64,000 nt of DNA from a virus: positions 1 through 64,000 of IMG/VR virus record IMGVR_UViG_3300046171_000216. One strand, written 5' to 3'. Positions 24,958 to 32,158 of this stretch are shown in pieces (position 1 is the first letter of the stretch; every line of letters begins with the position of its first letter). The notes beneath the pieces are model-generated. The model searched no databases. It worked only from the letters and a program-made list of their open reading frames with translations, and had not been told where the DNA came from. The position numbers and the translations under genes are program-made.

Positions 24958-24985
24958 ATTATAGCACAACTTTTCCAATTGTCCA
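24958..24985 (-). promoter_or_regulatory. Sigma70-type promoter for the Sm-like/gp43 operon
   Basis: TGGACA (24980-24985), 16 bp spacer, perfect TATAAT (24958-24963), minus strand, inside the last codons of purM. Confidence 0.65.
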
Positions 24986-25891
24986 ACTCTTGTATCCAAA
25001 TGCATCTATTGTATCGTGAGTATCAATTTCACTTTGCTCTGGTATTACCACACAATATCCAATACCAAGATTAAAAACTTTTTTCATTTCCTCTTCTGGT
25101 ATCTCACCTGCTGACATTATCTTTTGAAATATTTTAGGTAACGGCCAAGAATTGTAATCAATATCTGCCTTTAATCCATCAGGTAAGCAACGTGGCAAAT
25201 TCTCTGGAATACCACCACCAGTAATATGTGCCATACCTAATATAGGAACTTCATTTATAAGTTCCATTACAAGTGGAGCATAGATATGAGTTGGTGTTAA
25301 AAGTTTTTTCGTTGCTTTTAATTTTTTCTGTCTTATTAAATGATTAACTAAACTGTAACCATTACTATGAATACCACTACTTTCAATTCCGATTATAAGG
25401 TCTCCTTCTTGAATAATTGAACCATCAATTATTTCAGATGACTCAACGATTCCTGTACTAAATCCTGCGAGGTCAATATCAAAAGTCATTGGATGTTCAG
25501 CAGTTTCACCACCAATAAGTTCAACACCTGCTAACTCACATCCTTTAATGATACCTGTCATAATATCATCTACTTTTGTATTGATTGTATTAAGAGAAAT
25601 ATAATCTAAAAAATATAAAGGTTTTGCACCACAAGTAATAATATCATTAACACACATTGCAACCAAATCAATACCTATAGTTTTATAGTTGTCTAGTCTA
25701 CTACAAATACAAATTTTTGTTCCAACTCCATCAGTACCAGAAACTAAAATAGGTTCCTCATATCCACGAGGAACCTTATACATACCACCGAATCCACCGA
25801 TGGTAGGTACTTTTTGTTTTAGTCTTTCAACGAAAGCATTACCTGCTTCAATATCAACACCCGATGATTTATAGGTAGTTTTTTCTTGCAT
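24959..25891 (-). CDS. purM: Phosphoribosylformylglycinamidine cyclo-ligase (AIR synthetase) PurM
   Basis: 310 residues, slightly shorter than the bacterial enzyme (about 345). It converts FGAM plus ATP to AIR in purine synthesis. Signature segments: GTDGVGTKI, DLVAMCVNDI, GGETAEHP, GIESSGIHSNGYSLV and HITGGGIPENLPR. The start overlaps hsp20 by 23 nt. A known auxiliary gene of marine T4-like phages; with purS and gcvP here it points to boosted purine output. Confidence 0.95.
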   Translation of the reverse strand: MQEKTTYKSSGVDIEAGNAFVERLKQKVPTIGGFGGMYKVPRGYEEPILVSGTDGVGTKICICSRLDNYKTIGIDLVAMCVNDIITCGAKPLYFLDYISLNTINTKVDDIMTGIIKGCELAGVELIGGETAEHPMTFDIDLAGFSTGIVESSEIIDGSIIQEGDLIIGIESSGIHSNGYSLVNHLIRQKKLKATKKLLTPTHIYAPLVMELINEVPILGMAHITGGGIPENLPRCLPDGLKADIDYNSWPLPKIFQKIMSAGEIPEEEMKKVFNLGIGYCVVIPEQSEIDTHDTIDAFGYKSWTIGKVVL

Positions 25892-26303
25892 GATGTTCTG
25901 GAACTATCTTACCCAATTTGACGGTAAGTAATCCATCTTTAAATAAAACCTCTCTGACTTCAATATCTTCTGATAGTGACCAGGTTCTGTTGAAAGATCT
26001 CTGAGCCAGTCCTTGATAGACATACTCGGATTCTTTCTCTTTTTCTTTTTTCTTTCCTTCAACAATAAGTTTTCCATATTCAGTATAAACATGAAGTTCA
26101 TTTTTACTAAATCCTGCTAATGCTATTTCTAGTATTGATTCAACATTATTTACATGAATAAGATTGTAGGGTGGATAGTTTGTTGCGGTTTCGTAAGAAT
26201 TGAAAAAATTATCTAGGTATGAATCCATACCAATTCCATTCTTAGAAATAATCTTCATTAGTTCTGGAAGATTAGCAGAGTGATACTTCTGTAGTGAAGT
26301 CAT
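25869..26303 (-). CDS. hsp20: Small heat-shock protein Hsp20
   Basis: 144 residues. Alpha-crystallin core: YPPYNLIHVNNVESILEIA, FSKNELHVYTEYGKLIVEG, then FNRTWSLSEDIEVREVLFKDGLLTV, the usual Hsp20 ending (A-x-x-x-D/N-G-L-L). The usual C-terminal I-x-I motif is reduced to KIVPEHH. hsp20 is a core gene of marine T4-like phages, probably aiding assembly of virion or host proteins. Translationally overlapped with purM. Confidence 0.92.
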   Translation of the reverse strand: MTSLQKYHSANLPELMKIISKNGIGMDSYLDNFFNSYETATNYPPYNLIHVNNVESILEIALAGFSKNELHVYTEYGKLIVEGKKKEKEKESEYVYQGLAQRSFNRTWSLSEDIEVREVLFKDGLLTVKLGKIVPEHHARKNYL

Positions 26304-26372
26304 AATAGTTCTCCTTTAAAAGCGAGTGTAAATTGTGAACCCTTTCGGCATTCTCAATTATTTAACAATACA

Positions 26373-26783
26373 CTACCACTTTTCCATAATAATCTCTATA
26401 GTATTATCAACATCCATATGTTCGGTTGTTACATTAAAACCTTTTGATTGTGCGGTTTCTACTACAGCACATTTTGCATATGCCTGAGTTACTTTTTGTA
26501 GAAATCTTTCAATAGGAAATGATTCGTGCCAAGTATCAACCTCAGTAACTAATTCAAATACTCCATCATCATTAATCTTAAATCCCGCTGTCATCGGTCT
26601 CATTACTTCTAAAGATGTATCATACTTAGTTACTCCTATTTCAACTTGAACCTCTTCGTGTTGATGATTAGAAGGATTTTTTAACAATACATTTTCTGTT
26701 CCAGTATATCCAATAGTAAGCAATGCTTTAATTAAAAAATCTTTATCCTTCAGTTTCGTTTTGATGTTGGTGAAGTGAGACAT
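26373..26783 (-). CDS. DUF1257 (Ycf35-like) protein
   Basis: 136 residues. N-terminus MSHFTNIKTKLKDKDFLIKAL and the strand pattern HEEVQVEIGV, AGFKINDDGVFELVTEVD are typical of the DUF1257/Ycf35 family of cyanobacteria, plastids and their phages. Function unknown. It overlaps the DUF2997 gene by 41 nt; the two families are usually adjacent, suggesting a shared role. Confidence 0.8.
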   Translation of the reverse strand: MSHFTNIKTKLKDKDFLIKALLTIGYTGTENVLLKNPSNHQHEEVQVEIGVTKYDTSLEVMRPMTAGFKINDDGVFELVTEVDTWHESFPIERFLQKVTQAYAKCAVVETAQSKGFNVTTEHMDVDNTIEIIMEKW

Positions 26784-26943
26784 TTTGTTTCTGATAGTAT
26801 TCTGGTTTTAATTCTCTAGACTTAACATTACCTAGAGTATCTTCTATTTCTTTTGTAATATCTATACAAGTATCATTTGTTACTCCTTGAACTTCTTCAG
26901 TAACATTACCGTCTTGGTCAATACGAAAAATAATTCTTTGCAT
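26743..26943 (-). CDS. DUF2997 protein
   Basis: 66 residues: MQRIIFRIDQDGNVTEEVQG, then CIDITKEIEDTLGNV and KPEYYQKQ. This matches DUF2997, the usual partner of DUF1257. It lies just downstream of the structured RNA at 26957-27191 and has no clear Shine-Dalgarno sequence, so expression may depend on the upstream leader. Function unknown. Confidence 0.78.
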   Translation of the reverse strand: MQRIIFRIDQDGNVTEEVQGVTNDTCIDITKEIEDTLGNVKSRELKPEYYQKQNVSLHQHQNETEG

Positions 26944-26956
26944 GTTTCAGTAGCAT

Positions 26957-27003
26957 AAAAAAAAGACCCTCTGCCCCACTCTCTTGAGTTGCATCTTAGG
27001 TCT
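26957..27003 (-). terminator. Intrinsic terminator or attenuator at the end of the structured RNA
   Basis: AGACC pairs with GGTCT around a 30 nt arm holding an ACTC/GAGT hairpin, followed by eight T. It lies only 14 nt before the DUF2997 ATG, so it may act as an attenuator for that operon. Confidence 0.55.
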
Positions 27004-27191
27004 AAAAAAGGAGGGAGGTTGGGTTCCTGTGTACCAACAAAAGATGGGCATTACTACAGAGTAAATACATCTTTGCCTGAGACCCGACTGGTAAGTCGAT
27101 TCTGCTTTCGCAGCAGCACCACCTGTGTCTCATCACCTTAACCAGCGATTGCCAGTAAGTTTATTCAGTCACTCCCATTGTTGCGTCCAAC
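26957..27191 (-). ncRNA. Structured RNA, about 235 nt, own promoter and terminator-like end
   Basis: Intergenic region with no open frame, flanked by a strong promoter (27198-27225) and a hairpin plus T8 at its 3' end. Stems in order on the minus strand: ATTGTTG/CAACAAT (loop GACG), a closing stem TGAGAC/GTCTCA holding a GCTGC-GAAA-GCAG type hairpin and a GACT/AGTC hairpin, AAAGATG/CATCTTT with an inner TTAC/GTAA, GTTGG/CCAAC, then AGACC/GGTCT and a T-run. Either a stand-alone phage small RNA or an attenuated leader of the DUF2997-DUF1257-hsp20-purM operon. I do not recognise a known family. Confidence 0.6.
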
Positions 27192-27197
27192 AATATA

Positions 27198-27225
27198 AGT
27201 ATAGCACAAAAAAAGGAGGTGTCAA
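27198..27225 (-). promoter_or_regulatory. Strong sigma70-type promoter overlapping the regA terminator
   Basis: Perfect TTGACA (27220-27225), 16 bp spacer, TATACT (27198-27203). The -35 box lies in the loop of the regA terminator hairpin and the spacer includes its T-run, so one transcript ends where the next begins. Confidence 0.8.
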
Positions 27226-27231
27226 CCCTCC
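27207..27231 (-). terminator. Intrinsic terminator after regA
   Basis: GGAGG/CCTCC stem with loop GTTGACA followed by seven T, overlapping the regA stop codon. Confidence 0.8.
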
Positions 27232-27662
27232 CCTTCTTCTTTCTTCTTTTTAGCACCAATATTATATTTCGTTTCTAAAATCCATTCACCTTTATCTTTA
27301 AATGATAACACTTTGATTTGATTAAGAGGTGCAATGTCTTGTATACGAACTACATCGACCACACCAACCAATCCCCAATCAGCAAGAAGCTGAGCAATAC
27401 GGTTGCGACGCTGAACATCGTTAGAAGTAAGGTTAGCGTGTTTTCCATCAAGAGCAAAAAGTTCTTTAAAGTGGACAAGATAATACCTCCCTTGCTTATG
27501 AAGTATGTGACAACTTTGATATATTTTCTTTTCTTTCCTACTTGCTACACCAATTCTTGTGAGAGTTTCTCTGACTTTCAGGAAATCATCTGGTTCATTC
27601 AATGTTACCTCCACCATTTGGTCGGGAGACCATGTGACGACAGGTTCTTTAACAACACTCAT
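27222..27662 (-). CDS. regA: Translational repressor RegA
   Basis: 146 residues. Family signatures: VEVTLNEPDDFLKVRETLTRIGVAS, IYQSCHILHKQGRYYLVHFKELFALDG, and the C-terminal SFKDKGEWILETKYNIG. T4 RegA binds the initiation regions of early mRNAs and represses their own and other early translation. The start overlaps the gp62 stop (ATGA). An N-terminal extension of about 14 residues precedes the T4-like start. Confidence 0.95.
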   Translation of the reverse strand: MSVVKEPVVTWSPDQMVEVTLNEPDDFLKVRETLTRIGVASRKEKKIYQSCHILHKQGRYYLVHFKELFALDGKHANLTSNDVQRRNRIAQLLADWGLVGVVDVVRIQDIAPLNQIKVLSFKDKGEWILETKYNIGAKKKKEEGEG

Positions 27663-28045
27663 TTCGCTCCTCCAGTATCAAATTTAGATTTTATAAAGTT
27701 GAGTTGTTTTTTTGTCAGAATTTTCAAAGCTTGTTTTGCTTTTTCGTTACTATAACCATAATAACGTTTCACATAATCAAGGTCTTTAATCATATCCTTA
27801 CGAAGCCAAGGAGAGAATCTCTTCTTAGTTCTGAGAGTATTTATATAAAAGTCGTATTGCATCCGCTTTGGTAAGAAATTATACTTATTCATTTCGTTAG
27901 CAAAAAGGATTGCATCTAAGTGTCCTGAGAAACAACGATTGATTATGTATGGTGGATAATCTTTCTCTACTAGAGGATCTTCATCTATTAAATTTTTCTT
28001 TGTTTGGTTGATTGAGTTCAACCAGTCTTTCAGTTCCATCTTCAT
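27659..28045 (-). CDS. 62: Clamp-loader small subunit (T4 gp62-like)
   Basis: 128 residues beginning [19 protein letters not shown] (28045; ATG 28039 is the alternative). The frame is open further upstream but lies inside gcvP and is not protein-like. Features of marine gp62: [50 protein letters not shown]. With gp44 it loads the gp45 clamp. Its 5' end overlaps the last 21 codons of gcvP. Confidence 0.85.
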
Positions 28046-30779
28046 TATCAAAATAGTTTTCACAAGAGCAGACAAGATTACGATCTCCATAAACATTGTC
28101 AATTCGTGATATCGCTGGCCAAAACTTATTTGTTTGATTGGCAGGATACGCTGCTTCATCACGACTATAATTATACACCCATTCATCTGAACTTACAACC
28201 TTTGCTGTATGGGGTGCGTTTTTCAAGATATCTTTATTCTTATCAATCTCTCTTCGGATACTTACCATTGCTGAACCAAATCTTTCAAGTTCTTCTAATG
28301 ATTCACTTTCAGTTGGTTCTACCATTACTGTTCCTGTAACTGGCCAAGATAATGTAGGTGCGTGAAAACCATAATCCATCAATCTCTTTGCCACATCTTC
28401 AGCACTAATACCATCAAAATATCGAACATCAAATATACATTCGTGTGCCACTCTATCGTTTGCACCTTTATATAATACTTTGAAGAATGGTTCAATACGA
28501 TGCACTAACCAGTTTGCAGTAAGTAAAGATATTTCACTTGCCTTTCTTAATCCATCAGCACCCATCATTCTTATATACATCCAACTGATTGGAAGTATAG
28601 ATGCACTACCTTGAATTGCTGCTGATACTCGATGGTTCATAAAAGGAACAAGATGTTCTGCAACACCAATAGGACCAACACCAGGACCACCACCACCGTG
28701 AGGAATACAGAATGTCTTATGTAAATTCATATGGCATACATCAATACCATACTCACAAGGTTTTGCTAATCCGACTTGTGCATTTAGATTTGCACCATCA
28801 AGATATACCTGTCCACCACTCTCGTGAACAATTTTACAAATGTCCTTAATGGTTGGTTCAAATACACCGTGAGTTGATGGATATGTAATCATAATACAAG
28901 ACAACTCAAGACAGTTCATAAGTGCTTGCTTTTCTAAATCCTTTAAATCTATATTACCTTCTTCATCACATTTAACAGGAACAATCTTCATACCTGCCAT
29001 CACTGCTGATGCAGGATTAGTTCCGTGTGCACTTGTAGGTATCAAACATACATTTCTTTTTGTATCACCATTACTTCTGTGATATTCTTGTATTGCAAGT
29101 AAACCTGCATACTCTCCCTGTGAACCTGCATTTGGTTGTAATGATACTTCTTCAAATCCAGTAATATCACATAACCATTCTTGTAAATCAAACATAATTC
29201 TTTGGTATCCAAGAGTTTGATTTTCTGGTGCGAATGGATGCATATTCGCAAACTCATTCCAACTTACAGGCATAAGTTCTGATGCTGCATTTAATTTCAT
29301 AGTACAACTTCCAAGTGGCATCATACCATTTACTAATGAGAAATCTTTTGATACTAACTCATTAATGTATCTCATCATATTAGTTTCACTTTGATACTTA
29401 TTGAAAACATCTTGTCTTAACCAAGGTTGTGTTCTCTCTGGAATATCTTTCCACTTGTATCTACCAACTGACTCAACAATATGATCAATACTATCACTTT
29501 TGTTTACTAAATCTTGTTGTGAATTAAGAATATCTTTTATCTCATCAAGAGTCGTAAGTTCATCTAAAGTAATGATAGTATGGTCATCTTCATAACGAAC
29601 ATTGTATCCTTCAACAGTAAGAAAACTTCTGAATCGCACTGTATCAAAACCTTCAGTATCATCTACCTCAATACCTAACCAGAATAATCCTTTTCTTAAT
29701 ATTTCACGATAAGTTAGAATACGATTTGCAATTCTTTTGAGTCCTTCTGCTCCGTGATATGCAGCATAAAATCCTGCCATATTTGCAAGTAGTGCTTGTG
29801 CTGTGCATATGTTAGATGTTGCCTTATCTCTTCTTATATGCTGCTCTCTAGTCTGTAGTGCCAATCGTAGTGCTTTGTTACCTTGAGCGTCTACAGACTG
29901 TCCTACTATCCTACCAGGTATTTTTCTTTTATACTTATCTGTTGTTGCAAAGAATGCTGCGTGTGGACCACCAAATCCCATTGGTACACCAAATCTTTGC
30001 ATACTACCAACTGCAACATCAAAACCCATTTCACCTACAGGTTGCATAAGAACCTGTGCTAATGGATCGACAATTGCAATCTTCATACACTTACAAACTT
30101 CTGCTAATCTTAATACTCCATCACGATGTCTTAAATTACCGTGACTATTTGGTAATTGTACAATGACTCCAAATGCATCAGAAAAGAAAGCGATTGGTAT
30201 TGAACCATCAAAATCAATTTTAATGATATTAATTCCTAGTGGTCTTGCTCTTGTTTGTAATACTTCTAGTGTTTGTGGGAATATTTTATCATCAACTATA
30301 AAATCTTTCTTCTTACTTTGACTATGTGCAAGTAACATTGCTTCTGCTGCTGCAGTTCCTTCATCTAACAATGATGCATTTGCAACTGGTAATCCAGTAA
30401 GTTCTGTAATTAATGTTTGATAATTAAATAATGCTTCTAATCTACCCTGTGATATCTCTGCCTGGTATGGAGTATAAGATGTATACCAAGCAGGATTTTC
30501 AAATACATTACGAAGAATTACTGATGGTGTAATTGTGCCATAGTATCCTTGACCTATCAAACTTCTCTTAACAACATTATGACTTGCAATATCTTTTAAT
30601 TCTGTAAGTGCCTGTTGCTCACTACATCCTTCTGGTAATTTACTATCACCACGAAGTAAAATTGAATCAGGAACAATCTCTCTGACCAATTCATCTATAG
30701 TTGATAGACCAAGATCAGCAAGCATTTTGCGTTGTTCTGATTCTGATGGTCCGATATGACGTTGAATAAATTCTGACAT
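27981..30779 (-). CDS. gcvP: Glycine dehydrogenase (decarboxylating), P protein GcvP
   Basis: 932 residues, full length and intact. A PLP enzyme that decarboxylates glycine and passes aminomethyl to lipoyl-GcvH; with GcvT and GcvL it yields CO2, NH3, NADH and 5,10-methylene-THF. The PLP lysine motif is visible ([18 protein letters not shown]), as are [23 protein letters not shown] and the N-terminal [18 protein letters not shown]. The start at 30779 abuts the preceding TAA; the ATG at 30788 is less likely. The family core ends at [11 protein letters not shown]; the remaining tail is largely out-of-frame gp62 sequence. H, T and L proteins must come from the host. A notable auxiliary gene placed inside the replication operon. 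Confidence 0.96.
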
Positions 30780-30780
30780 A

Positions 30781-30948
30781 TTACCCATTCACCATTTCAT
30801 CATCCATAGTTTTATTTCGGATGACAATTGTATTACTATCATAGTCAGGATAAAATTCAATTATATCCTCGGTGTCCCAACACATTTCCTCATAAAGCAT
30901 ATTGAGTTTTTGCATGTCTTGGTACATATCTGATGGTCTTTCATCCAT
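30781..30948 (-). CDS. Small acidic phage protein (55 aa), unknown function
   Basis: Open frame from ATG (30948) to TAA (30781). Begins [20 protein letters not shown] and continues [17 protein letters not shown]. It abuts the dam stop and ends immediately before the gcvP start. Acidic and helical. No family assigned. Confidence 0.6.
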
Positions 30949-31937: not shown

Positions 31938-32158
31938 TATATAATTCCTCCACCTGTTCTTCTCTGTCTTAATTCTTCAAGTTCAATTTTAATCTCAATT
32001 ATTTCAGTAAGGTCGTTTACTGAATTAGACATCGATTGATATCCCGCACCAACAAAGATTTGTCCTGCCATTACTGCAACAGTGCAAGCACCCCAGAACA
32101 AATAGTATTGATAAGATTTTATTTGTGCTTTAGTTTTAGCAAAAGTTGATTTAGTCAT
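31934..32158 (-). CDS. Small membrane protein, unknown function
   Basis: 74 residues. One membrane helix (YYLFWGACTVAVMAGQIFVG) followed by a short coiled coil (LTEIIEIKIELEELRQRR). It touches the Sm-like gene (TAATG) and the next small membrane gene. Possibly a small inner-membrane factor. Confidence 0.6.
   Translation of the reverse strand: MTKSTFAKTKAQIKSYQYYLFWGACTVAVMAGQIFVGAGYQSMSNSVNDLTEIIEIKIELEELRQRRTGGGIIY

Follow-up and report, generated by a model that had tools for sequence, protein, structure and literature searches.

A complete manA RNA with predicted promoter and terminator of its own in a T4-like marine phage: a candidate stand-alone RNA gene

The manA RNA was described in 2010 from marine metagenomes and T4-like cyanophages (Weinberg et al., PMC2864571). 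That paper rates manA as certain to be an RNA, certain (Y) to be a cis-regulator and probable (y) to be a riboswitch, and places mannose/fructose, nucleotide synthesis, ibpA and photosynthesis genes downstream of it. The manA alignment was corrected in Rfam 14.3 (PMC7779021), the Rfam type of the family (RF01745) is Cis-reg, and a phage paper of 2023 states that the regulatory role of manA still awaits verification (PMC9964418). The available sections of PMC2864571 and PMC7779021 make no mention of a promoter, of the single copy or of the changing position of manA, and manA is not discussed in the main text of the paper on RNA-seq of P-HM2 infection (PMC5082946).

Identity and anatomy of the manA copy in the window

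In this study, we analysed a stretch of viral DNA of 64,000 nucleotides (the window; positions 1 to 64,000 of IMG/VR record IMGVR_UViG_3300046171_000216). The covariance model of RF01745 matched the minus strand at 27008..27193 over its full length (model positions 1-192 of 192), with 189.1 bits versus a cut-off of 55.2 and an E value of 1.3e-52, and manA was the sole Rfam match at the gathering threshold in the window as well as in the whole record of 64,151 bases. This makes the stretch a member of the known manA family, described in PMC2864571. The initial annotation had called it unrecognised, which does not hold; its description of a highly structured non-coding RNA was borne out by this match and by the fold, and the interval that it gave (26957-27191) corresponds very closely to the span from promoter start to terminator end. 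The records closest to the window are Prochlorococcus and Synechococcus phages, consistent with a marine cyanophage origin, and the RegA of the window is 93% identical to that of Marine virus AG-345-E02, a Salacisavirus.

The minimum-energy fold of 27193..26957 (minus strand) recovered the stems of the Rfam model as well as the two named beforehand, one capped by GAAA and one formed by TGAGAC/GTCTCA. The latter is an inner stem and not the closing one; the RNA is closed further out by GGGAG/CUCCC, for which a pseudoknot was considered and rejected, as it is a nested outer stem. The folding energy was not unusual (z = -0.5, minus strand), and energy alone would have missed the RNA. Relatives were collected by a pattern of the conserved core, which yielded more than 100 loci in viral contigs, and 150 distinct sequences were compared with the Rfam consensus. 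The check for compensatory changes suggested with the initial annotation was passed: two-sided changes were seen in 35 of the 55 pairs, standard pairs make up 93% of the pair cells, and pairing exceeds that of each of 200 shuffles at many manA base pairs, in a MAFFT alignment that placed a minority of the Rfam pairs poorly (in P1 and at positions 135-138/146-149). The closing stem GGGAG/CUCCC is nearly unvarying in this set, whose search pattern itself contains GGG.GTG, and P-HM1 has GGGUG/CACCC there, a compensated A-U to U-A change. Large unpaired segments are also conserved, with many invariant unpaired bases. On this comparative evidence from the sequences, we regard it as settled that the RNA is real beyond chance.

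The minus strand carries the whole element (27225..26957), comprising promoter, manA RNA, 3' hairpin and T8; the feature was assigned to this strand because the hairpin with T8 and the following ATG make sense there alone. The gene 5' of the RNA is regA, encoding a translational repressor (27222..27662, minus strand; in the ORF list; PHROG phrog_242, E 5.5e-64). After regA comes a terminator-like hairpin, GGAGGGTTGACACCTCC followed by T7 (27208..27231, minus), which resembles the terminator of regA; the consensus scan of the window did not list this hairpin on the minus strand. A sigma-70-type promoter, TTGACA-16-TATACT with TG before the -10 box (27198..27225, minus), has 11 of 12 consensus bases, confirming the near-consensus promoter noted earlier, and the manA stem starts 5-6 bases after the -10 box. 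The regA terminator and the manA promoter are fused in the window, the -35 box being the loop of the terminator hairpin (27208-27231 and 27198, minus), and such a -35 box inside a terminator hairpin was found in 45 of 144 manA loci. In ACG-2014f phages, 23 bases identical to the fused terminator/promoter stretch occur at 31977, far from their manA at 129989. As a separate observation, the window carries gcvP (glycine dehydrogenase) at 27981-30788 on the minus strand, encoding 935 aa of the phage type (TIGR00461, 1250 bits) with about 73% identity to gcvP of P-HM1, P-HM2 and MED4-213; the end of the window gcvP and the beginning of the gp62 reading frame overlap.

Four bases past the end of manA begins a conserved 3' hairpin, AGACC-UAAGA-UGC-A-ACUC-loop-GAGU-GGG-GCA-GAG-GGUCU (26964..27003, minus; energy about -12.7 kcal/mol), which lies outside the Rfam model and doubles here as the stem of an intrinsic terminator. 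It is followed by a T8 run (26957..26964, minus), at which a transcript of about 235 nt is predicted to end. The first gene after the RNA, on the same strand and with the terminator in between, encodes a DUF2997 protein (26743..26943, minus; Pfam PF11211, E 4.9e-18), and its ATG at 26943 is 14 nt past the T-run, just as first described. The genes for DUF1257 (26373..26783, minus; PF06868, E 6.7e-15), hsp20 (25869..26303, minus; PF00011, phrog_432) and purM (24959..25891, minus; phrog_1207, Pfam AIRS/AIRS_C) follow in this order. Judged by sequence, the window copy has both a promoter and a terminator of its own, as expected of a stand-alone RNA gene, and an independent small RNA was one of the two options that the initial annotation had offered.

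Promoter, copy number and genome position

The promoter is a constant companion of manA. A perfect TTGACA is present in 133 of 149 distinct manA loci with enough upstream sequence, and at least five of the six TATAAT bases stand right before the first stem in 139 of the 149. After dereplication of the upstream contexts on distal upstream sequence (<65% identity), a promoter with at least 10 of 12 consensus bases was found in 47 of 49 contexts, versus 0.6 expected from base-shuffled sequence. As the promoter is directly before the first stem, transcription is therefore expected to start at manA itself, at about 27193 in the window.

Exactly one manA was found with the Rfam model in each of the 14 complete isolate genomes that have it, and one also in three further contigs of more than 160 kb and in many shorter contigs; two were never seen. 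Twelve other isolates, including S-PM2, Syn9 and S-SM2, have none. These counts come from three sets: 11 isolate records with 12 contigs; two isolates, one single-cell record and 19 contigs, one of which has only a truncated manA match below threshold; and P-HM2, a Prochlorococcus single-cell assembly and a contig of 235,761 bases encoding an Hsp20 identical to that of the window. They were obtained with the stricter large-set filters of Infernal, which a weak second copy could escape. The manA RNA was present in all Prochlorococcus myoviruses examined and in few Synechococcus ones, in a biased sample in which most positives were found by manA similarity.

The position of the single copy differs among phages. 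It lies beside gp23 in P-HM1, MED4-213, P-RSM4, S-SSM5 and MbCM1, beside the ferredoxin gene in P-SSM7, pstS in P-SSM3 and P-SSM4, talC in P-RSM6 and regA in P-SSM2, and at pebS and gp32 in P-HM2, giving the arrangements gp23-manA, pebS-manA-gp32, ferredoxin-manA, pstS-manA, manA-talC and regA-manA. Crude clustering at 148 contig loci gave 34 downstream and 43 upstream protein families, the commonest downstream ones being gp32 (38), talC (17), phrog_431 (14), a HAD-like protein (12) and hsp20 (11). In some phages a tRNA-Asn or tRNA-Gly gene is directly downstream of manA (six loci). Masking of a Shine-Dalgarno sequence by CUCCC was also considered and set aside; some downstream genes have such a sequence and many are without it.

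P-HM1 and P-HM2 are sister phages assigned to a single species, and each has one manA, at a different locus and with an empty site where the other carries it. In P-HM1, manA lies between gp23 and PHM1_122, and the pebS-gp32 gap is 48 nt; in P-HM2, it is the pebS-gp32 gap that holds manA, and the distance from gp23 to the next gene is only 93 nt. The gp32 promoter of P-HM1 (CTTGTCA...TGCTATAATAAATAGT) runs straight into a short gp32 leader without manA, and the manA of P-HM2 starts immediately behind the same gp32 promoter. The promoter of the P-HM1 manA is inside the gp23 terminator, and the RNA is followed by a hairpin with T6 and then by CTAAATA, which we take to be the cyanophage late-promoter motif. 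These junctions were read by eye, as the pairwise MAFFT alignment misplaced gaps. Three annotated hypothetical proteins overlap manA and are probably not genes, namely PHM1_121 of P-HM1 (locus L232, 2551-2727) and PHM2_011 and PHM2_012 of P-HM2 (locus L382, 1451-1625).

Transcript ends and the 3' hairpin

We compared 32 phage hsp20 loci whose upstream sequence spans 1,400 nt or more. In 25 of them manA precedes hsp20 on the same strand, directly in 14 and with intervening genes, as in the window, in the rest. In all 22 distinct loci where manA and hsp20 are direct neighbours, an intrinsic terminator lies between them, and in nearly all of these it is followed by a TATAAT-like box and then by hsp20's own leader. 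Three unrelated sequences serve as this terminator: the conserved hairpin, AGGGGTGG...CCACCTCT and GAAGGTGTGTGG...CCACTGCCTTT. Three unrelated sequences with one job suggest that the ending of the transcript is what is kept. Across the unbiased set, a simple hairpin-plus-T-run terminator was present in only 24 of 93 loci, and none was found before the next gene in many loci, including gp32 leaders, P-SSM2, P-RSM6 and tRNA genes.

The second option of the initial annotation, a riboswitch or attenuator linked to purM, with ligand sensing tied to that gene, gained no support. purM is the fourth gene past the terminator, manA lies elsewhere in most relatives and has dozens of unrelated neighbour genes, the antiterminator pairing is not conserved, and same-locus relatives have a terminator, usually with a new promoter box, between manA and hsp20.

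The hsp20 leader of the window (26304-26357, minus) is itself a candidate RNA thermometer. It has a weak ROSE_3 match below the cut-off (25.4 bits, E 0.02), a Rfam search for a ROSE thermometer in ten homologous hsp20 loci gave no match at E <= 1, and a literature search found no cyanophage RNA thermometer. A pairing that would mask the Shine-Dalgarno sequence (CUC-G-CUU/AAGGAG, with a bulged G) is kept in 40 of 40 distinct hsp20 leaders with a variable loop, and in most of them a UUCG-capped hairpin lies next to it.

The 3' hairpin recurs as CUAAGAUGCAACU-loop-(A)GU-SGGGCAGA(U/G)GG. We extracted 99 loci, 71 of them distinct when ten flanking bases were counted in, and the 3' end of manA (CCUCCC) lies 9-20 nt upstream of every hairpin, bar one contig that starts inside the element. 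Seven loci missed the strict pattern for the manA 3' end, and six of these clearly show ...CTACCTCCC by eye, so the hairpin was never met without manA among the extracted loci. Its outer stem covaries without exception (G-C in 56 and A-U in 15 of the 71, versus at most 64/71 in shuffles), the apical pair beside the loop switches from C-G to U-A, and the internal loop UAAGA/GAN is almost invariant. The hairpin had no match to Rfam families at E up to 10, and a 61-nt query gave no cyanophage match in BLAST; it was seen in metagenome contigs only. It is present at 18 of the 93 loci of the first, unbiased scan, and a T5 stands within the next 16 nt in 45 of the 71 versions and is missing from 26. 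The hairpin is thus a domain that manA may or may not have on its 3' side, combined here with a terminator.

Several simpler readings of the hairpin were rejected. A mere terminator does not account for a sequence kept in the 26 versions that lack T5 within 16 nt. A short peptide (AUG CAA CUC ...) does not fit a loop length that varies out of frame or conserved halves that are non-coding. The antiterminator pairing of hairpin AGACC with GGGUCU of the manA central stem is not conserved, since AACC/GGUU hairpins stand beside an unchanged GGGUCUC, and for pairing of CCCUC of the closing stem with hairpin GAGGG, GAG rather than GAU is present in a minority (12 of 71).

Function and relation to known systems

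The promoter, the terminators, the single copy and the varied neighbours are easier explained by an RNA gene than by a regulator of the next gene. We therefore lean, by a little, towards reading the manA of the window as a discrete RNA of about 235 nt that would act as itself, over the Rfam label Cis-reg. The wider proposal, on which we would put even chances, is that manA is a single-copy trans-acting RNA gene of Prochlorococcus-type T4-like phages and not a cis-regulator, being selected while its position shifts, with the optional 3' hairpin as a terminator or second binding domain. Host RNA polymerase would start at stem P1 and stop at T8, releasing a compact RNA of about 235 nt to work in trans, and this RNA would bind a protein, a ribonucleoprotein or another partner via its many invariant unpaired bases. 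Anatomy and conservation can be read directly from the alignments; accumulation of the 235-nt RNA is predicted from them, and a trans function is presumed. The single copy fits a trans role and is no proof of one. At loci with no terminator, such as gp32 in P-HM2, manA and the following gene would share one message, and the RNA may be cut out of it or work in both ways; such loci leave room for a cis or double role, as does the recurrence of partners such as gp32.

The published view makes manA a cis-regulatory leader or riboswitch, the 5' end of a message that senses a metabolite and controls the next gene, for example by attenuation at the hairpin and T8. It agrees with the Rfam type and with the Y and y ratings in PMC2864571, the large conserved unpaired segments are aptamer-like, and the terminator just before DUF2997 would fit attenuation. 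A cis role would also explain the recurring neighbours (gp32 38/148, talC 17/148), and in many loci 29-49 nt, with no terminator, separate manA from gp32. The neighbours, however, span 34 families and include tRNA genes, each genome has one copy, sister phages differ in its location, and the terminator before hsp20 is there in 22 of 22 loci, usually with a new promoter box. Moreover, the alternative pairing AGACC:GGGUCU is not kept, and most gp32 leaders inspected have no Shine-Dalgarno sequence for manA to mask. We consider a leader possible but clearly the less probable reading.

Structured 5' ends stabilise messages, and manA could be a transportable expression cassette, in which a consensus promoter and a stable structured 5' end protect any message with neither ligand nor trans target. 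Promoter and manA are indeed nearly always paired, and several highly expressed phage genes follow manA (gp32, talC). This is improbable in our judgement: the conservation of loop sequences far exceeds the needs of stability, one copy per genome would be odd for a general-purpose device, a terminator parts manA from the next gene in the window, in P-HM1 and in the hsp20 loci, and the manA of P-HM2 stands behind a promoter that gp32 of P-HM1 uses without manA. The ordinary folding energy (z about -0.5) would suit a structure that arose by chance or serves termination only, with no function as RNA, but we give this reading practically no weight in view of the covariance E value of about 1e-52 and the compensatory changes at 35 of 55 pairs.

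If manA is a stand-alone phage RNA, the hunt since 2010 for its ligand, or for a metabolic gene under its control, has been misdirected, and the questions to ask of this orphan riboswitch candidate are how large the RNA is, what it binds and what its deletion does to the phage. P-HM1 and P-HM2 offer a natural test pair, as sister phages of one laboratory host with manA at different places.

The pRNA of phi29, GOLLD and the stable RNAs C and D of T4 are single-copy phage non-coding RNAs that work as RNA. Their likeness to manA is that of one structured RNA gene per phage genome, an analogy and not membership; the Rfam scan of the window gave no sequence or structure match to those of them that are in Rfam. 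The wcaG RNA (RF01761) is a companion marine-phage motif treated jointly with manA in PMC2864571 and reported together with it in S-CREM1 (PMC9964418), yet it is a different family, with no match in the window in the Rfam scan. The closest system is manA (RF01745) itself, with which the window copy shares the full-length match, the cyanophage setting and the ibpA/hsp20 and nucleotide-synthesis neighbours given in PMC2864571, and P-SSM2 carries manA at a matching locus, in the order regA, manA, a purL-annotated gene, hsp20 and purM. The window copy differs from the RF01745 model in its extra conserved hairpin outside the model and in the T-run before the first gene.
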